From: Caulobacteraceae bacterium | Lineage (GTDB): Bacteria > Pseudomonadota > Alphaproteobacteria > Caulobacterales > Caulobacteraceae | Length of the DNA stretch: 10,433 nt | Direction of reading: 5' to 3' | Assembly (NCBI GenBank): GCA_947479185.1 | Contig: CANJYY010000061.1 | Location: 1 to 10,433, forward strand | Shown: positions 1 through 10,433 of the stretch, piece after piece | How the letters are laid out: each line of letters starts with the position of its first letter | Numbering within the stretch: position 1 is the stretch's first letter | Position numbers and translations under genes: made by a program | Notes under the pieces: generated by a model | What the model saw: only the letters and a program-made list of their open reading frames with translations | Told to the model about the DNA's origin: nothing | Database searches by the model: none

Positions 1-835
1 GATCGAGCTCGACCAGGGTCTCCACATGCTCGGAGACAAACGCGATCGGCGTCACGACCAGGGCCAGGCCCTCGGCGCTCGCGGCGCGGATCTCGTCATC
101 CGTCGACGGGCCGATCCATTTCATCGGCCCCACCCGGCTCTGGAAACAGACCTTCCAGTCCCAGCCCGGACCGAGCTTTTCCGCCACGGCGGCGCAGGTG
201 GCCTCGATCTGCGCCTGGTAGGGATCGCCGCCCTTGATGACCTTTTCCGGCAGGCCGTGGGCCGAAAACAGCAGCCTCGCGGGTCCCGCATGGCCGGCGG
301 CCGCCCAGGTCTCGGCGATCAGCCGGGCGTGCGCCTCGACCAGCCCGCCGAGCGTCGGGTAGCAGCAGACGGTGCGGATCTTCCCCGGGCCCTTGTAGGC
401 CTTGGCCCAGGCCTGGGCTGAAGACCCTGTCGTGGTGGTCGAGAACTGCGGATAGAGCGGCAGCAGGATGATCTCGTCAGGGCCCCAGGCCGCGACCTGC
501 GCCGCCGTCTCGTCGGTCAGCGGCTTCCAGTAGCGCATGGCTATGAAGCAGCGGATCTCGTCGTCGGGCGCGCGGACCGCCAGCGCCGTTTCCAGCGCCG
601 CCGCCTGTTTACGCGTCTCGGGCAGCAGCGGCGAGCCGCCGCCCATGATGGCGTAGTTCGCCTTGGCCGACTCTTCGCGACGGCTGGAGATCAGGGCCGC
701 CAGCGGCGTGCGCAGGATGCCCGGCAGGCTGATGATCGCCGGATCATTGAACAGGTTGAACAGGAACGGGCGCACCGCGTCCGGACCATCAGGCCCGCCG
801 AGGTTGAACAGGACAATAGCGACCTTGCGGCTCAT
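1..835 (-). CDS. hemH: Ferrochelatase, 3' end beyond the window
   Basis: Ferrochelatase inserts Fe2+ into protoporphyrin IX, the last step of haem synthesis, at the inner membrane. Read on the minus strand, the first 278 codons are present and the frame is still open at base 1; the family usually has about 320-350 residues. The N-terminus carries the family start VLFNLGGP (residues 8-15). The active-site motif FSAHGLP has its histidine at residue 193. It is followed by the QSRVGPMKWIGPSTDD block and, at the edge, SEHVETLVELD with the conserved glutamate near residue 272. The ATG (835-833) overlaps the hemE TGA as ATGA, so the two genes are very probably co-translated. Two adjacent cysteines (C157-C158) lie in RTVCCYPT. 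C. crescentus ferrochelatase carries a [2Fe-2S] cluster, but the C-terminal cysteines needed to judge that here lie outside the window. Identification is secure. Confidence 0.97.
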   Translation of the reverse strand, partial: MSRKVAIVLFNLGGPDGPDAVRPFLFNLFNDPAIISLPGILRTPLAALISSRREESAKANYAIMGGGSPLLPETRKQAAALETALAVRAPDDEIRCFIAMRYWKPLTDETAAQVAAWGPDEIILLPLYPQFSTTTTGSSAQAWAKAYKGPGKIRTVCCYPTLGGLVEAHARLIAETWAAAGHAGPARLLFSAHGLPEKVIKGGDPYQAQIEATCAAVAEKLGPGWDWKVCFQSRVGPMKWIGPSTDDEIRAASAEGLALVVTPIAFVSEHVETLVELD

Positions 836-1860
836 CCCTGGGTGATCCGCTTGAGGACGCGTTCGACATGGGCGATCGGCGTGTCGAGGATGATGCCGTG
901 ACCCAGGTTGAAGATGTAGGGACCGTCGCCCCACTGTTCGATCAGTTCGTCGACGCGGTGGTCGAGCGCCGCGCCACCAGCCCGCAGCAGCAGCGGATCG
1001 AGCGCGCCCTGGATCGGCACCTTTTCCTGGATGCTGCGACCGAGCGCGGCCGATGCGGCGGTGTCGAGCGCCACGGCGTCGACGCCGACGGTGTCGGCAT
1101 AGTGCTGCGCCAGACTGCCGGCGCCGCGCGGAAAGCCGATCACCGGCGCGACCACGTCCAGCCCGGCCAGACCATCGAGGATCGCCCGGTGCGGCTTGCA
1201 CACCAGCCGCTCGAACAGATCCTCGGGCAGGCCCTCGGCCCAGCTTTCGAACAGCTTCAGCACCTGGGCGCCGGCGTCGACCTGCATGGCCAGATAGCGC
1301 ACCGTCGACTGGACGAGGATGTCGAGCAGCCGGTCCATCTCCGCCGGATGCTCATAGGCGAAGGTGCGGGCTTTGCTGCGGTCCGAGGAGCCCCCTTCGA
1401 TCATGTAGGTCGCCACGGTCCACGGCGCGCCCGCGAAGCCGATCAGGGCCCGCTCGGGCTCCAGCGCTTCACGCACCCGCGTCAGGGTCTCCCCGACATT
1501 GGACAGACGGGCGGTCGAGGCTTCGATTTCCGCGGCCAGGCGGTCGAGATCAGGCAGGGCGCCGAGCTTGGGACCCTCGCCGGCTTCGAACCAGACCTCC
1601 TGTCCCAAAGCCTGGGGCAGCAGCAGGATGTCAGCAAAAACGATCGCCGCGTCGAACGGGAAGCGGCGCATCGGCTGCAATGTCGCCTCAGCCGCCTTTT
1701 CCGGGTTCAGGCAGAAGCTGATGAAGTCCGGCGTCGTCGCACGCAGGGCGCGATACTCGGGAAGATACCGTCCAGCCTGGCGCATGAACCAGACGGGAGG
1801 GCGCTCGAGCGTCTCACCATCGAGGACGCGCAGCAGGCTCGGGATTTGTGATTGGGTCAT
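832..1860 (-). CDS. hemE: Uroporphyrinogen decarboxylase
   Basis: This cytosolic enzyme decarboxylates the four acetate side chains of uroporphyrinogen III to give coproporphyrinogen III in haem synthesis. The product is 342 residues, normal for the family. The signature PVWFMRQAGRYLPEYR (residues 22-37) gives the substrate-binding arginines R27 and R31. FADIL holds the catalytic aspartate D77. GFAGAPWTVATYMIEGG is the central motif, and FNLGHGI near the C-terminus carries H321. The frame stays open upstream to an ATG at 2136, but that adds 92 residues with no family similarity, encoded across CtrA and DnaA sites. The start at 1860 (MTQSQIPSLL) puts the signature where the family has it. There is no convincing Shine-Dalgarno before it. 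The TGA overlaps the hemH start. Its promoter must lie in the origin region, as in Caulobacter. Confidence 0.97.
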   Translation of the reverse strand: MTQSQIPSLLRVLDGETLERPPVWFMRQAGRYLPEYRALRATTPDFISFCLNPEKAAEATLQPMRRFPFDAAIVFADILLLPQALGQEVWFEAGEGPKLGALPDLDRLAAEIEASTARLSNVGETLTRVREALEPERALIGFAGAPWTVATYMIEGGSSDRSKARTFAYEHPAEMDRLLDILVQSTVRYLAMQVDAGAQVLKLFESWAEGLPEDLFERLVCKPHRAILDGLAGLDVVAPVIGFPRGAGSLAQHYADTVGVDAVALDTAASAALGRSIQEKVPIQGALDPLLLRAGGAALDHRVDELIEQWGDGPYIFNLGHGIILDTPIAHVERVLKRITQG

Positions 1861-1916
1861 CGTTGGTCTTGATAGGCCCCGCACCGTGAGAGGCAAGTCC
1901 ACCACCCCTCTTTCAT
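1857..1916 (-). other. Candidate leader mini-ORF ahead of hemE
   Basis: On the minus strand a 19-codon frame, MKEGWWTCLSRCGAYQDQR, starts with ATG at 1916-1914. Its TGA (1859-1857) overlaps the hemE start codon as ATGA. It begins right after the AT-rich patch and leftmost CtrA box. hemE has no clear ribosome binding site, so coupling through this frame would make sense. The frame itself has AAGGA almost touching its ATG, closer than an ordinary Shine-Dalgarno. A frame this short can arise by chance; expression is unproven. Confidence 0.2.
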
Positions 1917-1941
1917 TCCTTAATAAGAGATTAAAAAGGAT
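1908..1941. promoter_or_regulatory. AT-rich patch upstream of hemE (unwinding element or promoter)
   Basis: This is the most AT-rich run of the gap, including CATTCCTTAATAAG and AGATTAAAAAGG, embedded in GC-rich sequence. It contains the leftmost CtrA box. In C. crescentus an AT-rich region carrying CtrA sites and the strong hemE promoter occupies the matching place in Cori. No clean -35/-10 pair can be assigned by eye, so the exact promoter is left open. Confidence 0.5.
1920..1934. promoter_or_regulatory. CtrA box 1 (TTAA-N7-TTAA)
   Basis: TTAATAAGAGATTAA matches the bipartite CtrA recognition sequence exactly, with seven bases between the TTAA halves. It lies in the AT-rich patch about 60 bp upstream of hemE. 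Bound CtrA~P here could repress origin firing and also act on hemE transcription, as known for Caulobacter Cori. Confidence 0.75.
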
Positions 1942-2029
1942 GGGGTAGTGGGAGTAGGGCCGGGGCGCCGCGGGGATCAATCGCTCCCGTCGCGGGCGGT
2001 TCAGCCGGTATGACCAGCCGGCGCCGGGC

Positions 2030-2071
2030 TTGTCCCCATGTCGACGGACGCTCTGTGAACTCCGGGGACAA
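2030..2071. repeat. 8-bp inverted repeat TTGTCCCC / GGGGACAA
   Basis: The arms 2030-2037 (TTGTCCCC) and 2064-2071 (GGGGACAA) are perfectly complementary and separated by 26 bp. TTGTCCCCA differs from the DnaA box TTATCCACA at two positions, so weak DnaA binding is possible. The GTCCCC core recurs as a second inverted pair further right in the origin. Function unknown. Confidence 0.45.
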
Positions 2072-2093
2072 CCCCCCAGGGCCTCGGAAATCG

Positions 2094-2108
2094 TTAATGA
2101 AAGGTTAA
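2094..2108. promoter_or_regulatory. CtrA box 2 (TTAA-N7-TTAA)
   Basis: TTAATGAAAGGTTAA is an exact TTAA-N7-TTAA match near the middle of the origin gap, away from both start codons. Its position suits a role in blocking replication initiation rather than in ordinary promoter control. Confidence 0.75.
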
Positions 2109-2145
2109 ACCGGGCATCCGGGCAAAATCCCCTCAACGGCGAATT

Positions 2146-2154
2146 TGATCCACG
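2146..2154 (+). promoter_or_regulatory. DnaA G-box-like site TGATCCACG
   Basis: TGATCCACG has one mismatch (last base) to TGATCCACA, the moderate-affinity DnaA G-box form described in Caulobacter Cori, and two mismatches to the classical TTATCCACA. It lies about 40 bp right of CtrA box 2. A plausible DnaA site, not certain from sequence alone. Confidence 0.5.
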
Positions 2155-2164
2155 GCTGGGGAGC

Positions 2165-2169
2165 GAGTC
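2165..2169. promoter_or_regulatory. CcrM methylation site GAGTC (GANTC)
   Basis: GAGTC is the only GANTC site I find in the origin gap. CcrM methylates GANTC in Caulobacterales, and its methylation state changes as a fork passes, so a site here would become hemi-methylated immediately after initiation. The motif is short and could be accidental. Confidence 0.4.
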
Positions 2170-2200
2170 GCGAGTTGGCGGCGCCCGTTGGGGCGTAACC

Positions 2201-2239
2201 TGGGGACGGCCATACCGAATTCGGCCCTACCTGTCCCCG
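2201..2239. repeat. Nested dyad: GGGGAC / CCGAATTCGG / GTCCCC
   Basis: GGGGAC (2202-2207) and GTCCCC (2233-2238) form an inverted pair whose midpoint, 2220, nearly coincides with that of a perfect 10-bp palindrome CCGAATTCGG (2215-2224, midpoint 2219.5). The result is a concentric dyad of about 37 bp. Outer half-sites are 31 bp apart, close to three helical turns. This could bind a dimeric or tetrameric protein. No known binding motif is recognised. Confidence 0.45.
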
Positions 2240-2263
2240 TGGCGCCCAGCCCGGCCATACCGA
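2207..2263 (+). repeat. 12-bp direct repeat CGGCCATACCGA
   Basis: CGGCCATACCGA occurs exactly at 2207-2218 and 2252-2263, 45 bp apart. A related copy on the opposite strand, GGTCATACCG, lies at 2015-2006. The shared core CATACCG is present three times in the origin gap. I do not recognise it as a DnaA, CtrA or IHF site. Confidence 0.45.
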
Positions 2264-2305
2264 CCCGCGGGCGTCTGTATGGAAGCCCATTCGGCGCCCG
2301 ATGGG

Positions 2306-2320
2306 TTAACGCTTCGTTAA
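2306..2320. promoter_or_regulatory. CtrA box 3 (TTAA-N7-TTAA)
   Basis: TTAACGCTTCGTTAA is an exact CtrA bipartite site and the second half continues as TTAAC, the preferred form. It lies 55 bp upstream of the PDRP start and 4 bp from a DnaA box, so it could control both initiation and transcription of the rightward operon. Confidence 0.78.
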
Positions 2321-2324
2321 CGGC

Positions 2325-2333
2325 CTATCCACA
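2325..2333 (+). promoter_or_regulatory. DnaA box CTATCCACA
   Basis: CTATCCACA has a single mismatch (first base) from the DnaA consensus TTATCCACA. It is the best DnaA site in the window, and only 4 bp separate it from CtrA box 3. Close packing of these two site types suggests competition between DnaA and CtrA. Confidence 0.65.
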
Positions 2334-2374
2334 GGCTTTGTTCCCTGGCCCGCGGCGCCCTATGGAAGAAGGCG

Positions 2375-3223
2375 ATGACCGCGACCTCCCGACTGGCGAC
2401 CTATTTCCATATCCATCTCGTGTCCGACTCGACGGGCGAGACGCTCAACGCCATGGCCCGGGCCGTGTGCGCGCGGTTCACCGATATCCTGCCGATCGAG
2501 CACATCTACGCCCTGGTGCGCTCGCCGCGTCAGCTGGAGCGGGCGCTGGAGGAAATCGCGGGCTCGCCGGGCGTGGTCCTGCACACCATCATCGATCCCG
2601 CCCTGCGATCGGCGCTGGAAGATGGCTGCCGACGACATGAGATCCCCTGCATCGCGGCGCTGGACCCGGTGGTCGCGGCCATGTCGCGCTATCTCGGCGC
2701 GCCGATCTCCAGCCGCGTCGGCGCCCAGCACACGCTCGACACTGACTATTTCAACCGCATGGAAGCCCTGAACTACGCCATGGGCCACGATGACGGCCAG
2801 GGCGGTCAGGACCTTGAACAGGCCGATGTCGTTCTGGTCGGGGTGTCGCGGACGTCGAAGACCCCGACCTGCATCTATCTGGCCCATCGCGGCGTGCGCG
2901 CGGCCAACCATCCGTTGGTGCCCGGCGCCCCGATCCCGCCGGCGCTGCTGGCGCTGAAGAACACCCTGATCGTCGGCCTGATCGCTTCGCCGGACCGGCT
3001 TATCCAGATCCGCCGCAATCGCCTGCTGTCGCTCAACGAACAGCGCGAAAGCACCTATGTCGACCAGGACGCCGTCCGCGAGGAGATCATCGCCGCCCGC
3101 CGGCTGTTCGAGCGGATGGGCTGGCCGGTGATCGACGTGACCCGCCGCTCGGTCGAGGAAACGGCCGCCGCCATCATCAATCTTCTGTCCGGCGGCGGCG
3201 GCCAGATCGAGGTGCTCGGATGA
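2375..3223 (+). CDS. Pyruvate,phosphate dikinase regulatory protein (PDRP)
   Basis: PDRP-family proteins (formerly DUF299) are bifunctional: an ADP-dependent kinase and a Pi-dependent pyrophosphorylase that switch PPDK or PEP synthase off and on, linking gluconeogenic carbon flow to energy state. The product is 282 residues, typical for the family. The N-terminus has FHIHLVSDSTGETL (residues 11-24). The phosphate-binding loop GVSRTSKTPT sits at residues 156-165, followed by IYLAHRG and the conserved SPDRLIQIRRNRL block. The ATG at 2375 has a purine-rich GGAAGAAGG just upstream. The TGA overlaps the maf ATG. It is the first gene right of the origin, as in C. crescentus, where it is the RP001 homologue used to define Cori. 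Whether the target is PPDK or PEP synthase cannot be told from this window. Confidence 0.95.
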   Translation: MTATSRLATYFHIHLVSDSTGETLNAMARAVCARFTDILPIEHIYALVRSPRQLERALEEIAGSPGVVLHTIIDPALRSALEDGCRRHEIPCIAALDPVVAAMSRYLGAPISSRVGAQHTLDTDYFNRMEALNYAMGHDDGQGGQDLEQADVVLVGVSRTSKTPTCIYLAHRGVRAANHPLVPGAPIPPALLALKNTLIVGLIASPDRLIQIRRNRLLSLNEQRESTYVDQDAVREEIIAARRLFERMGWPVIDVTRRSVEETAAAIINLLSGGGGQIEVLG

Positions 3224-9018: not shown

Positions 9019-10433
9019 ATGACTGAACGCGTTCTGGTGATCGGCGCCGGCATGGCCGGTCTGTTCACGGCCCTGGCGCTCGGCGGACAGGGGCGTCAGG
9101 TCGACATTCTTGAACGTGATCCGCCGGCCCCGACGGGCGGCGCGGACGAGGCCTTCTCCGACTGGAACCGGCGCGGCGTCGGCCATCTGCGGCACAGCCA
9201 CGCCTTCCTCGCCCGGCTGCGCAACCTCGTCGTGGAGCATCATCCGGCGTTGCTCGACGCGCTGCGCGCCGCCGGCTGCCAGGAGATGAAGTTCGCCGAC
9301 GGCCTGCCCGCCGCCAGCCGGGATCGCTACCGGCCCGAGCCGGGCGACGAGATCCTGACCGTCATCACCAGCCGTCGCACGACGCTGGAACTGGTCATGC
9401 GCCGCTATGTCGAACAGATGCCGGGGGTGACCCTGCACAGCAACGTCAACGTCACGGGCCTGCTGGGCGCGGTCGACGCGGAGGGCCGCTTCGTCTGTGA
9501 AGGCCTGCGCGTGAAGGACGGCGAAACCGAGCGCGAGGCGCGGGCCAATCTCGTCGTCGACGGGGCCGGCCGCACCGACCAGGCCTTCGACTGGCTGGCC
9601 GAACAGGGCGTGACCTGGGACGAGGAGAGCGAGGACGCCGGCATCCTCTACTTCACCCGCCACTACCGGTTTCTGCCCGGCCAAAGCCAGCCCGAGCGGG
9701 GCCCCGTGCCCGGCGCGGGCGACATGGGATTTCTCAAGTACGGCGTGTTCCCGGCCGACAACGGCTGCTTCTCGATCACCCTGTCGGTGCCCGAGATCGA
9801 GGAGACCCTGCGCGTGGCGGTCATGCGGCCGGAGGTGTTCGATCACATCTGCCGTCTGCTGCCGGGCGTCGCGTCCTGGATCACGCCGGACCGCGCCGAG
9901 CCGGTGGGCAAGGTCTACGGCATGGGCGATCTGAAGAGCCGCTGGCGTTCGACGGTCAGGGACGGCAAGCCGATCGCGCTGAACCTGTTCTTCGTCGGCG
10001 ACGGCCTGGCCCGGACCAACCCGCTTTACGGCCGGGGCTGCTCGTTCGCGGCGATCGCGGCCTATCTGCTGAAGGATGTGCTGGCGGCGGAAGCCGACCC
10101 CGCGGCCCGCGGTCTCGCCTATCAGGCCGCCGTCGACCGGGACATTCGCCCCTATTTCCGCGCCATGCGCGACCAGGACCGCCAGGCGATCCGCCGCGCG
10201 CGCAACACCCTGGATCCGGCTTACCGTCCGCGGCTCAAGGCCAAACTGATGAAGAGCTTCGCCGAGGACGCCATCGCGCCCGCGATCCGCTCCGATCCGG
10301 CCCTGCTGCGGGCCTTCATGCGCGGCTTTCACATGCTCGAGCCCTCGACAGCCTGGCTCAAGCGCCCCGAGACCCTGGTCAGCGTGCTGGGGACCTGGGT
10401 GAAGCCGAAGGCGCTGAAGCAGCAGTACTATCC
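9019..10433 (+). CDS. FAD-dependent oxidoreductase or monooxygenase, 3' end beyond the window
   Basis: The first 471 codons are present and the frame is open at the right edge. The N-terminal Rossmann fold begins VLVIGAGMAGL with GAGMAG at residues 9-14 and the ribose-binding acid E32 (ILERD). VVDGAGRTD around residue 181 is the central strand. GDGLARTNPLYGRGCSFA (327 on, D328) is the second FAD motif of the PHBH/squalene epoxidase-type flavoprotein fold. RRGVGHLRHSHAFLARLR (about residues 54-71) is characteristic of a group of uncharacterised proteins annotated as FAD-dependent oxidoreductases. A helical C-terminal part rich in Arg and Lys follows. I see no Trp-halogenase WxWxIP motif. The substrate is unknown. 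It stands apart from the preceding operon by 69 bp. Confidence 0.88.
   Translation, partial: MTERVLVIGAGMAGLFTALALGGQGRQVDILERDPPAPTGGADEAFSDWNRRGVGHLRHSHAFLARLRNLVVEHHPALLDALRAAGCQEMKFADGLPAASRDRYRPEPGDEILTVITSRRTTLELVMRRYVEQMPGVTLHSNVNVTGLLGAVDAEGRFVCEGLRVKDGETEREARANLVVDGAGRTDQAFDWLAEQGVTWDEESEDAGILYFTRHYRFLPGQSQPERGPVPGAGDMGFLKYGVFPADNGCFSITLSVPEIEETLRVAVMRPEVFDHICRLLPGVASWITPDRAEPVGKVYGMGDLKSRWRSTVRDGKPIALNLFFVGDGLARTNPLYGRGCSFAAIAAYLLKDVLAAEADPAARGLAYQAAVDRDIRPYFRAMRDQDRQAIRRARNTLDPAYRPRLKAKLMKSFAEDAIAPAIRSDPALLRAFMRGFHMLEPSTAWLKRPETLVSVLGTWVKPKALKQQYY

Follow-up and report, generated by a model that had tools for sequence, protein, structure and literature searches.

The gap between hemE and ppsR at positions 1861–2374 of the contig described here is very probably the ortholog of Cori, the origin of Caulobacter crescentus, and the place where an uncultured species of this genus begins to replicate its chromosome. 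The interpretation is based on the agreement of gene synteny, three spaced CtrA boxes, a conserved DnaA-type site, a segment of low helical stability, and W-box-like hexamers, to which the relatives add a parB gene about 12 kb away and, in two complete chromosomes, a skew switch near the gap. These lines of sequence evidence support the origin assignment proposed in the initial annotation and mark the region as an ordinary, expected member of the known Cori kind.

Genomic context and host lineage

The window, i.e., the whole stretch of 10,433 nt that was analyzed, is a complete contig (C61) of a fragmented MAG (2.77 Mb in 410 contigs, 73.8% complete). The host is apparently an uncultured member of Caulobacter, a genus group that also includes Caulobacter segnis strain FS (L045). 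Its closest named relatives by ppsR (94–96% identity, five loci) are MAGs that bear the names Caulobacter sp. or Caulobacterales; the title of one indicates groundwater as its source. All loci with at least 91% identity among the matches listed stem from MAGs. The MAG E19_concoct.bin.116 contributes two ppsR matches (L037 and L085; 88% and 78% identical to the query), each close to a contig end; because the two copies differ in their relatedness, sequences of two species have probably been combined in this bin.

835–1860, minus strand: hemE, uroporphyrinogen decarboxylase (TIGR01464, 374.9 bits, cut-off 302.95); left flank
1861–2374, no strand: putative Cori-type chromosomal replication origin, comprising the whole hemE–ppsR gap (synteny, CtrA/DnaA module, footprint, weak duplex)
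2375–3223, plus strand: ppsR/PDRP (COG1806/DUF299), homolog of RP001 and CC_0001 (NF003742, 334.1 bits, cut-off 225); right flank

Both flanking genes score above their profile cut-offs and enclose exactly this gap, as the initial annotation had claimed for the hemE/PDRP pair. They are divergently transcribed from the gap, which is the arrangement expected of a Cori-type origin. The gap comprises 514 bp and has a GC content of 0.63, compared with 0.69 in the remainder of the window. On the left side, hemE is preceded by a fragment of a putative hemH (minus strand, identified by eye); on the right side, ppsR is followed by a Maf-like gene, aroE, coaE, and dnaQ (all on the plus strand), secB (minus strand), and then timA, a murein transglycosylase A-like gene, and a Smr-domain gene (plus strand). 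The profile matches of the Maf, transglycosylase, and Smr genes are below cut-off. A big open frame at 9019–10431, truncated by the contig end, resembles by eye an FAD-dependent oxidoreductase.

For comparison, the hemE–ppsR gap was sought in 85 loci and obtained from 81, with some genomes represented twice; the other four loci (L021, L037, L079, and L080) are without hemE. Seven sequences (L001–L005, L034, and L036) were aligned, and the rest were left out as duplicates or as more diverged.

CtrA boxes and their conservation

1920–1934, no strand: CtrA box 1, TTAATAAGAGATTAA; all 15 bases the same in the seven aligned sequences; inside the weakest duplex of the window
2094–2108, no strand: CtrA box 2, TTAATGAAAGGTTAA; 174 bp after box 1; box present in all seven, with one variable spacer base
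2306–2320, no strand: CtrA box 3, TTAACGCTTCGTTAA; 212 bp after box 2; box in place in all seven

A motif scan of the window returned the three exact CtrA boxes of the initial annotation, starting at 1920, 2094, and 2306. They account for six of the seven TTAA words in 10.4 kb, and there is no TTAA-N7-TTAA in the rest of the window. The earlier argument that three boxes exceed chance is borne out by each of the backgrounds used: none of 200 dinucleotide shuffles of the window contains a TTAA-N7-TTAA, and none of 5000 first-order Markov copies of the gap, which keep its higher A+T content, reaches the observed number of boxes. The whole assembly (2.77 Mb) has 11 such sites, of which three are in the gap; the other eight set the expectation at 0.0015 per 514 bp, with P(≥3) of approximately 5e-10.

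The gap might instead act only as a divergent promoter region through which CtrA regulates hemE and ppsR, with the true origin located elsewhere, e.g., at dnaA. Such an arrangement would accommodate the eight additional sites in the assembly, since CtrA boxes serve promoters too, and a review (PMC4468827) considers the activation of promoters at Cori. However, the eight sites are scattered singly over eight different contigs, whereas the footprint of the gap includes a conserved DnaA-type site and the weakest duplex, and the skew of two relatives switches in its neighborhood. We consider a promoter function without origin activity highly improbable and retain the assignment of the gap as the origin.

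Among the seven clade sequences, the spacing of the CtrA boxes is constant within one base, and G013, a distant member of the same genus, has three exact boxes with spacings of 174 and 212, equal to those in the window. Among the invariant blocks of at least nine columns, CTTAATAAGAGATTAA coincides with box 1, GAAAGGTTAA with the end of box 2, and GCTTCGTTAACG with that of box 3. Because the boxes, the ATCCACA core of the DnaA-type site, and their distances are unchanged in spite of considerable divergence in the intervening DNA (identity in 211 of 528 alignment columns), the pattern looks like purifying selection and not like decay. Further invariant blocks at 1890–1901, 1961–1969, and 2354–2364, the last just ahead of ppsR, match no motif known to us.

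The beginning of the spacer in box 1 is conserved although the CtrA consensus puts no constraint on the spacer. In 24 loci of the same genus with an exact first box, it reads TTAATAAGA in 17 cases, TTAAGAAGA in six, and TTAATAAGT in one; a second role of this spacer in unwinding is possible. A group of five loci (L024, L025, L026, L028, and L029, from genomes G004, G020, G010, G022, and G005) has an origin gap without any exact TTAA-N7-TTAA and carries only versions with one mismatch, such as TAAA-N7-TTAA ahead of the DnaA site. Control of the origin by CtrA may be weaker in this group.

Putative unwinding segment and further sites

1908–1948, no strand: putative DNA-unwinding element; 40 bp with the lowest duplex stability in the window by a nearest-neighbor profile; contains CtrA box 1
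2033–2038, plus strand: W-box-like TCCCCA; TCCCC kept in seven of seven aligned sequences, TCCCCA in six
2063–2068, minus strand: W-box-like TCCCCG; TCCCC[AG] kept in seven of seven
2157–2162, minus strand: W-box-like TCCCCA; TCCCCA within a few bases in five of six relatives
2201–2206, minus strand: W-box-like TCCCCA; kept in seven of seven
2234–2239, plus strand: W-box-like TCCCCG; kept in six of seven
2165–2169, no strand: GANTC (CcrM-type); not conserved in the seven aligned sequences

The AT-rich patch of the initial annotation coincides with the weakest duplex in the entire 10.4 kb. In eight of 11 related loci (L031–L035, L045, L010, and L012), the weakest 40 bp likewise contain one of the exact CtrA boxes of the gap; in the other three (L036, L006, and L016), they do not.

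Hexamers resembling the W-box (published consensus TCCCCA; PMC4285127) are frequent in the gap, which contains three copies of TCCCCA, as many as the other 9.9 kb of the window, and three copies of TCCCCG. Together, TCCCC[AG] occurs six times in the gap and nine times in the other 9.9 kb, and at least six are present in 43 of the 5000 Markov copies. Five of the six hexamers could be traced in the seven-sequence alignment, where they are mostly kept.

The published IHF 12-mer (TAACGCTCTGTT) has no convincing match in the gap; the best one has two mismatches and lies inside CtrA box 3. With up to three mismatches, the window yields six matches (2.57 expected), a number reached by 10 of 200 shuffles. 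The GANTC site of the initial annotation is present at 2165 but carries no weight as support for an origin, because the motif is frequent in the window (12 copies, approximately 0.6 expected per 514 bp) and the site is not conserved.

The DnaA-type site and its spelling

2325–2333, plus strand: DnaA-type site CTATCCACA; 4 bp after CtrA box 3, in the place of the G-box TGATCCACA
2146–2154, plus strand: G-box-like TGATCCACG; one step from the G-box, two from TTATCCACA; no copy in the six aligned relatives

Both near-consensus DnaA boxes of the initial annotation are present, but only the one at 2325 is conserved in the seven aligned sequences. By its letters, this candidate DnaA site is one step from TTATCCACA; it is spelled CTATCCACA in six of the seven sequences and CCATCCACA in the remaining one. 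The site at 2146 was rejected for now as a working G-box, since the six relatives are without it, and is probably due to chance or specific to the lineage. The alignment contains no second conserved G-box, and neither an exact TTATCCACA nor an exact copy of the published G-box (PMC4285127) occurs in the gap; the G-box class is characterized by a G in place of T at position 2 and by a pair of copies in each origin.

The combination of the last CtrA box and the core of the adjacent site (TTAA-N7-TTAA-N6-ATCCACA) was searched for in whole genomes. It occurs in 55 of the 75 genomes of the genus, exactly once in each, and in 45 of the 60 genus genomes that are at least 90% complete with at most 5% contamination; a reversed control pattern had no match in the genus. 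Across the family, the module is present in 56 of 390 genomes, of which one is among the 315 genomes of other genera. The genomes without a match include incomplete ones and the group comprising G004, G005, G010, G020, and G022, whose box is one mismatch off; L006 and L007 read CCATGCACA. The single module outside the genus (G107:C88:5236-5263) has GC before the core.

The two bases before ATCCACA vary among the 55 module-bearing genomes (tallied by eye: TG in 34, CT in seven, CC in six, GC in four, CG in two, TA in one, and TC in one). Because 21 of the 55 genomes also have a non-G-box spelling at this position, the site at 2325 is not classified as a G-box, and its spelling does not define the origin. 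The consensus TT precedes the core in none of the 55 genomes, which points only weakly to its avoidance, since random TT is rare in GC-rich DNA and the genomes are related.

A compensating change in DnaA is not supported as an explanation for the altered box. The DnaA proteins of the host genome, G026 (CT), G013 (GC), G003, and G034 (both TG) were compared over the 44 residues from ARPRQAAMW to RRIEAL, a stretch that we take to be the DNA-binding core; all five are identical except for one V/I difference in G026.

Tentatively, and with less than even confidence, we suggest that the selected feature is the fixed ATCCACA at a fixed 4 bp from the CtrA box and not the G of the G-box, while the outer bases drift without ever arriving at the strong TT. 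The modest and possibly new point suggested by these sequences is that the DnaA site next to the last CtrA box retains its core and its distance but loses the letter that named the G-box. In the literature searched, no title among the papers that mention CTATCCACA concerns origins.

Skew, parB, and dnaA in related chromosomes

Whole-chromosome skew was analyzed in two complete relatives, G013 and G005. In G013 (39 stretches of 20 kb, after exclusion of eight others near the gap), a switch at the gap gives a difference of 0.035 (one-sided permutation, p = 1.5e-4). This score equals the maximum at this resolution; the maximum is first reached at -51 kb, and the 90% band of -151 to +39 kb includes the gap. 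In G005 (40 stretches), the difference at the gap is 0.029 (one-sided permutation, p = 2.5e-4), and the best switch (0.033) is at -49 kb with a 90% band of -459 to -39 kb, just outside of which the gap is located. Positive stretches prevail on one side (17 of 20 in G013, 12 of 20 in G005) and negative stretches on the other (13 of 19 and 18 of 20, respectively).

The switch is loosely placed, with a broad plateau in both relatives. In 5-kb bins, the skew of G013 is mostly positive at 2.05–2.12 Mb, negative at 2.12–2.16 Mb, and mostly positive beyond, so that its sign changes more than once near the gap at 2.171 Mb. There is no clean switch within the window and no clear one along the 136.8 kb of G026:C75 from a 96%-identical relative.

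The location of parB was investigated in 12 genomes, with G027 taken as circular; the distance of parB was not measurable in G000, G028, and G034. In eight genomes (G003, G005, G007, G011, G013, G026, G027, and G029), parB is located toward hemE, at 11.3–13.0 kb from ppsR; in C. crescentus, parS is located within 8 kb of Cori according to a review (PMC4468827). In contig C1 of G019 (72435–72944 and 86154–86984), the distance is 13.2 kb on the ppsR side. The contrast with the eight genomes above points to a rearrangement in the vicinity of the origin.

In the five genomes in which its distance from the gap was measured (G003, G005, G013, G019, and G027, with G003 and G027 taken as circular), dnaA is 27–85 kb away. 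Origins adjacent to dnaA, as in Escherichia coli and many other bacteria, combine DnaA sites with an AT-rich unwinding segment. The region described here differs from them in that dnaA is on another contig and that the gap is without an exact TTATCCACA. An origin at dnaA was rejected for the host assembly, whose dnaA contig (C53) contains neither a CtrA box nor TTATCCACA or TGATCCACA and has three scattered ATCCACA cores. Like the distance of dnaA in the relatives, this argues against a promoter-only gap with the origin at dnaA.

Comparison with known origins

Cori of C. crescentus is flanked by hemE and CC_0001/COG1806 and listed with a length of 404 bp for strain CB15 (PMC1914354); five CtrA sites and two G-boxes have been reported (PMC4468827, PMC4285127). 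Among 236 loci, only L012 (genome G001, 4.0 Mb) contains a published C. crescentus Cori primer (PMC6169604), which matches approximately 1.1 kb rightward of the gap; its partner primer has no exact match in any locus searched. One of the CtrA boxes of L012 also contains the exact IHF 12-mer (present in L224, too), and we infer that L012 represents C. crescentus or a near relative. Its CtrA boxes are at gap positions 65 (one mismatch), 86, 208, 256, and 466.

The gap shares with Cori of C. crescentus the flanking genes and their orientation, the AT-rich segment, TCCCCA-type weak sites, and a DnaA site 4 bp after the last box. Its length of 514 bp is similar to that listed for CB15 (404 bp; PMC1914354) or that of L012 (518 bp by our gene starts). 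The three boxes are the counterparts, at matching places, of the boxes at 86, 256, and 466 in L012, whereas those at 65 and 208, the latter of which holds the IHF 12-mer, have no counterparts. There are thus three CtrA boxes instead of five, one conserved DnaA 9-mer instead of two G-boxes, and CTATCCACA instead of TGATCCACA as the DnaA site. The origins of Rickettsia prowazekii and related Alphaproteobacteria have the same hemE–COG1806 flanking pair, but that of R. prowazekii is AT-rich and shorter (384 bp listed; PMC1914354).

The missing IHF 12-mer and the two missing boxes would also be compatible with a former Cori that looks intact but has been superseded by another origin in this species. 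By contrast, boxes, ATCCACA core, and distances that stay fixed in seven clade sequences amid diverging DNA have the appearance of elements under purifying selection, and we regard a superseded origin as extremely improbable. The anatomy of the gap fits a simpler layout than that of C. crescentus, with one CtrA box on the segment predicted to melt, another in the middle, and the third next to the sole conserved, putatively moderate DnaA site.

Proposed function and implications

In swarmer cells of C. crescentus, CtrA~P binds Cori and excludes DnaA; the sites used by DnaA are weak W-boxes and two G-boxes of moderate strength, and IHF can displace CtrA, as described in PMC4468827, PMC4285127, and PMC6169604. 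The motifs observed in the gap, the way they are conserved and spaced, the flanking genes, and the skew of relatives suggest a similar working of the gap, in which protein binding, unwinding, and cell-cycle timing would follow the C. crescentus model. DnaA-ATP would nucleate at the moderate site at 2325–2333 and then spread across the weak TCCCCA-type sites, opening the AT-rich segment around 1908–1948. At high levels of CtrA~P, CtrA dimers would occupy the three boxes. CtrA on box 1 would mask the weak segment, and CtrA on box 3 would leave little room for DnaA at its site 4 bp away. Replication would be held off until CtrA is removed.

The assignment places an origin in a Caulobacter lineage whose relatives with at least 91% ppsR identity are, among the matches listed, MAGs. 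The composite TTAA-N7-TTAA-N6-ATCCACA, with at most one copy per genome, may serve as a compact signature for locating Cori in draft genomes of Caulobacter.

According to a review, a raised affinity for DnaA at Cori can lower replication (PMC4468827). It has been proposed that Cori depends on a weak DnaA site that competes with CtrA, and the natural box variants are ready-made sequences for testing this proposal. If the fixed core is indeed the selected feature, TGATCCACA, CTATCCACA, CCATCCACA, and GCATCCACA would be alike in their affinity for DnaA, and all would be weaker than TTATCCACA. Different lineages would then keep the same tuned, CtrA-excludable affinity by means of different letters (TG, CT, CC, GC, CG, TA, or TC).
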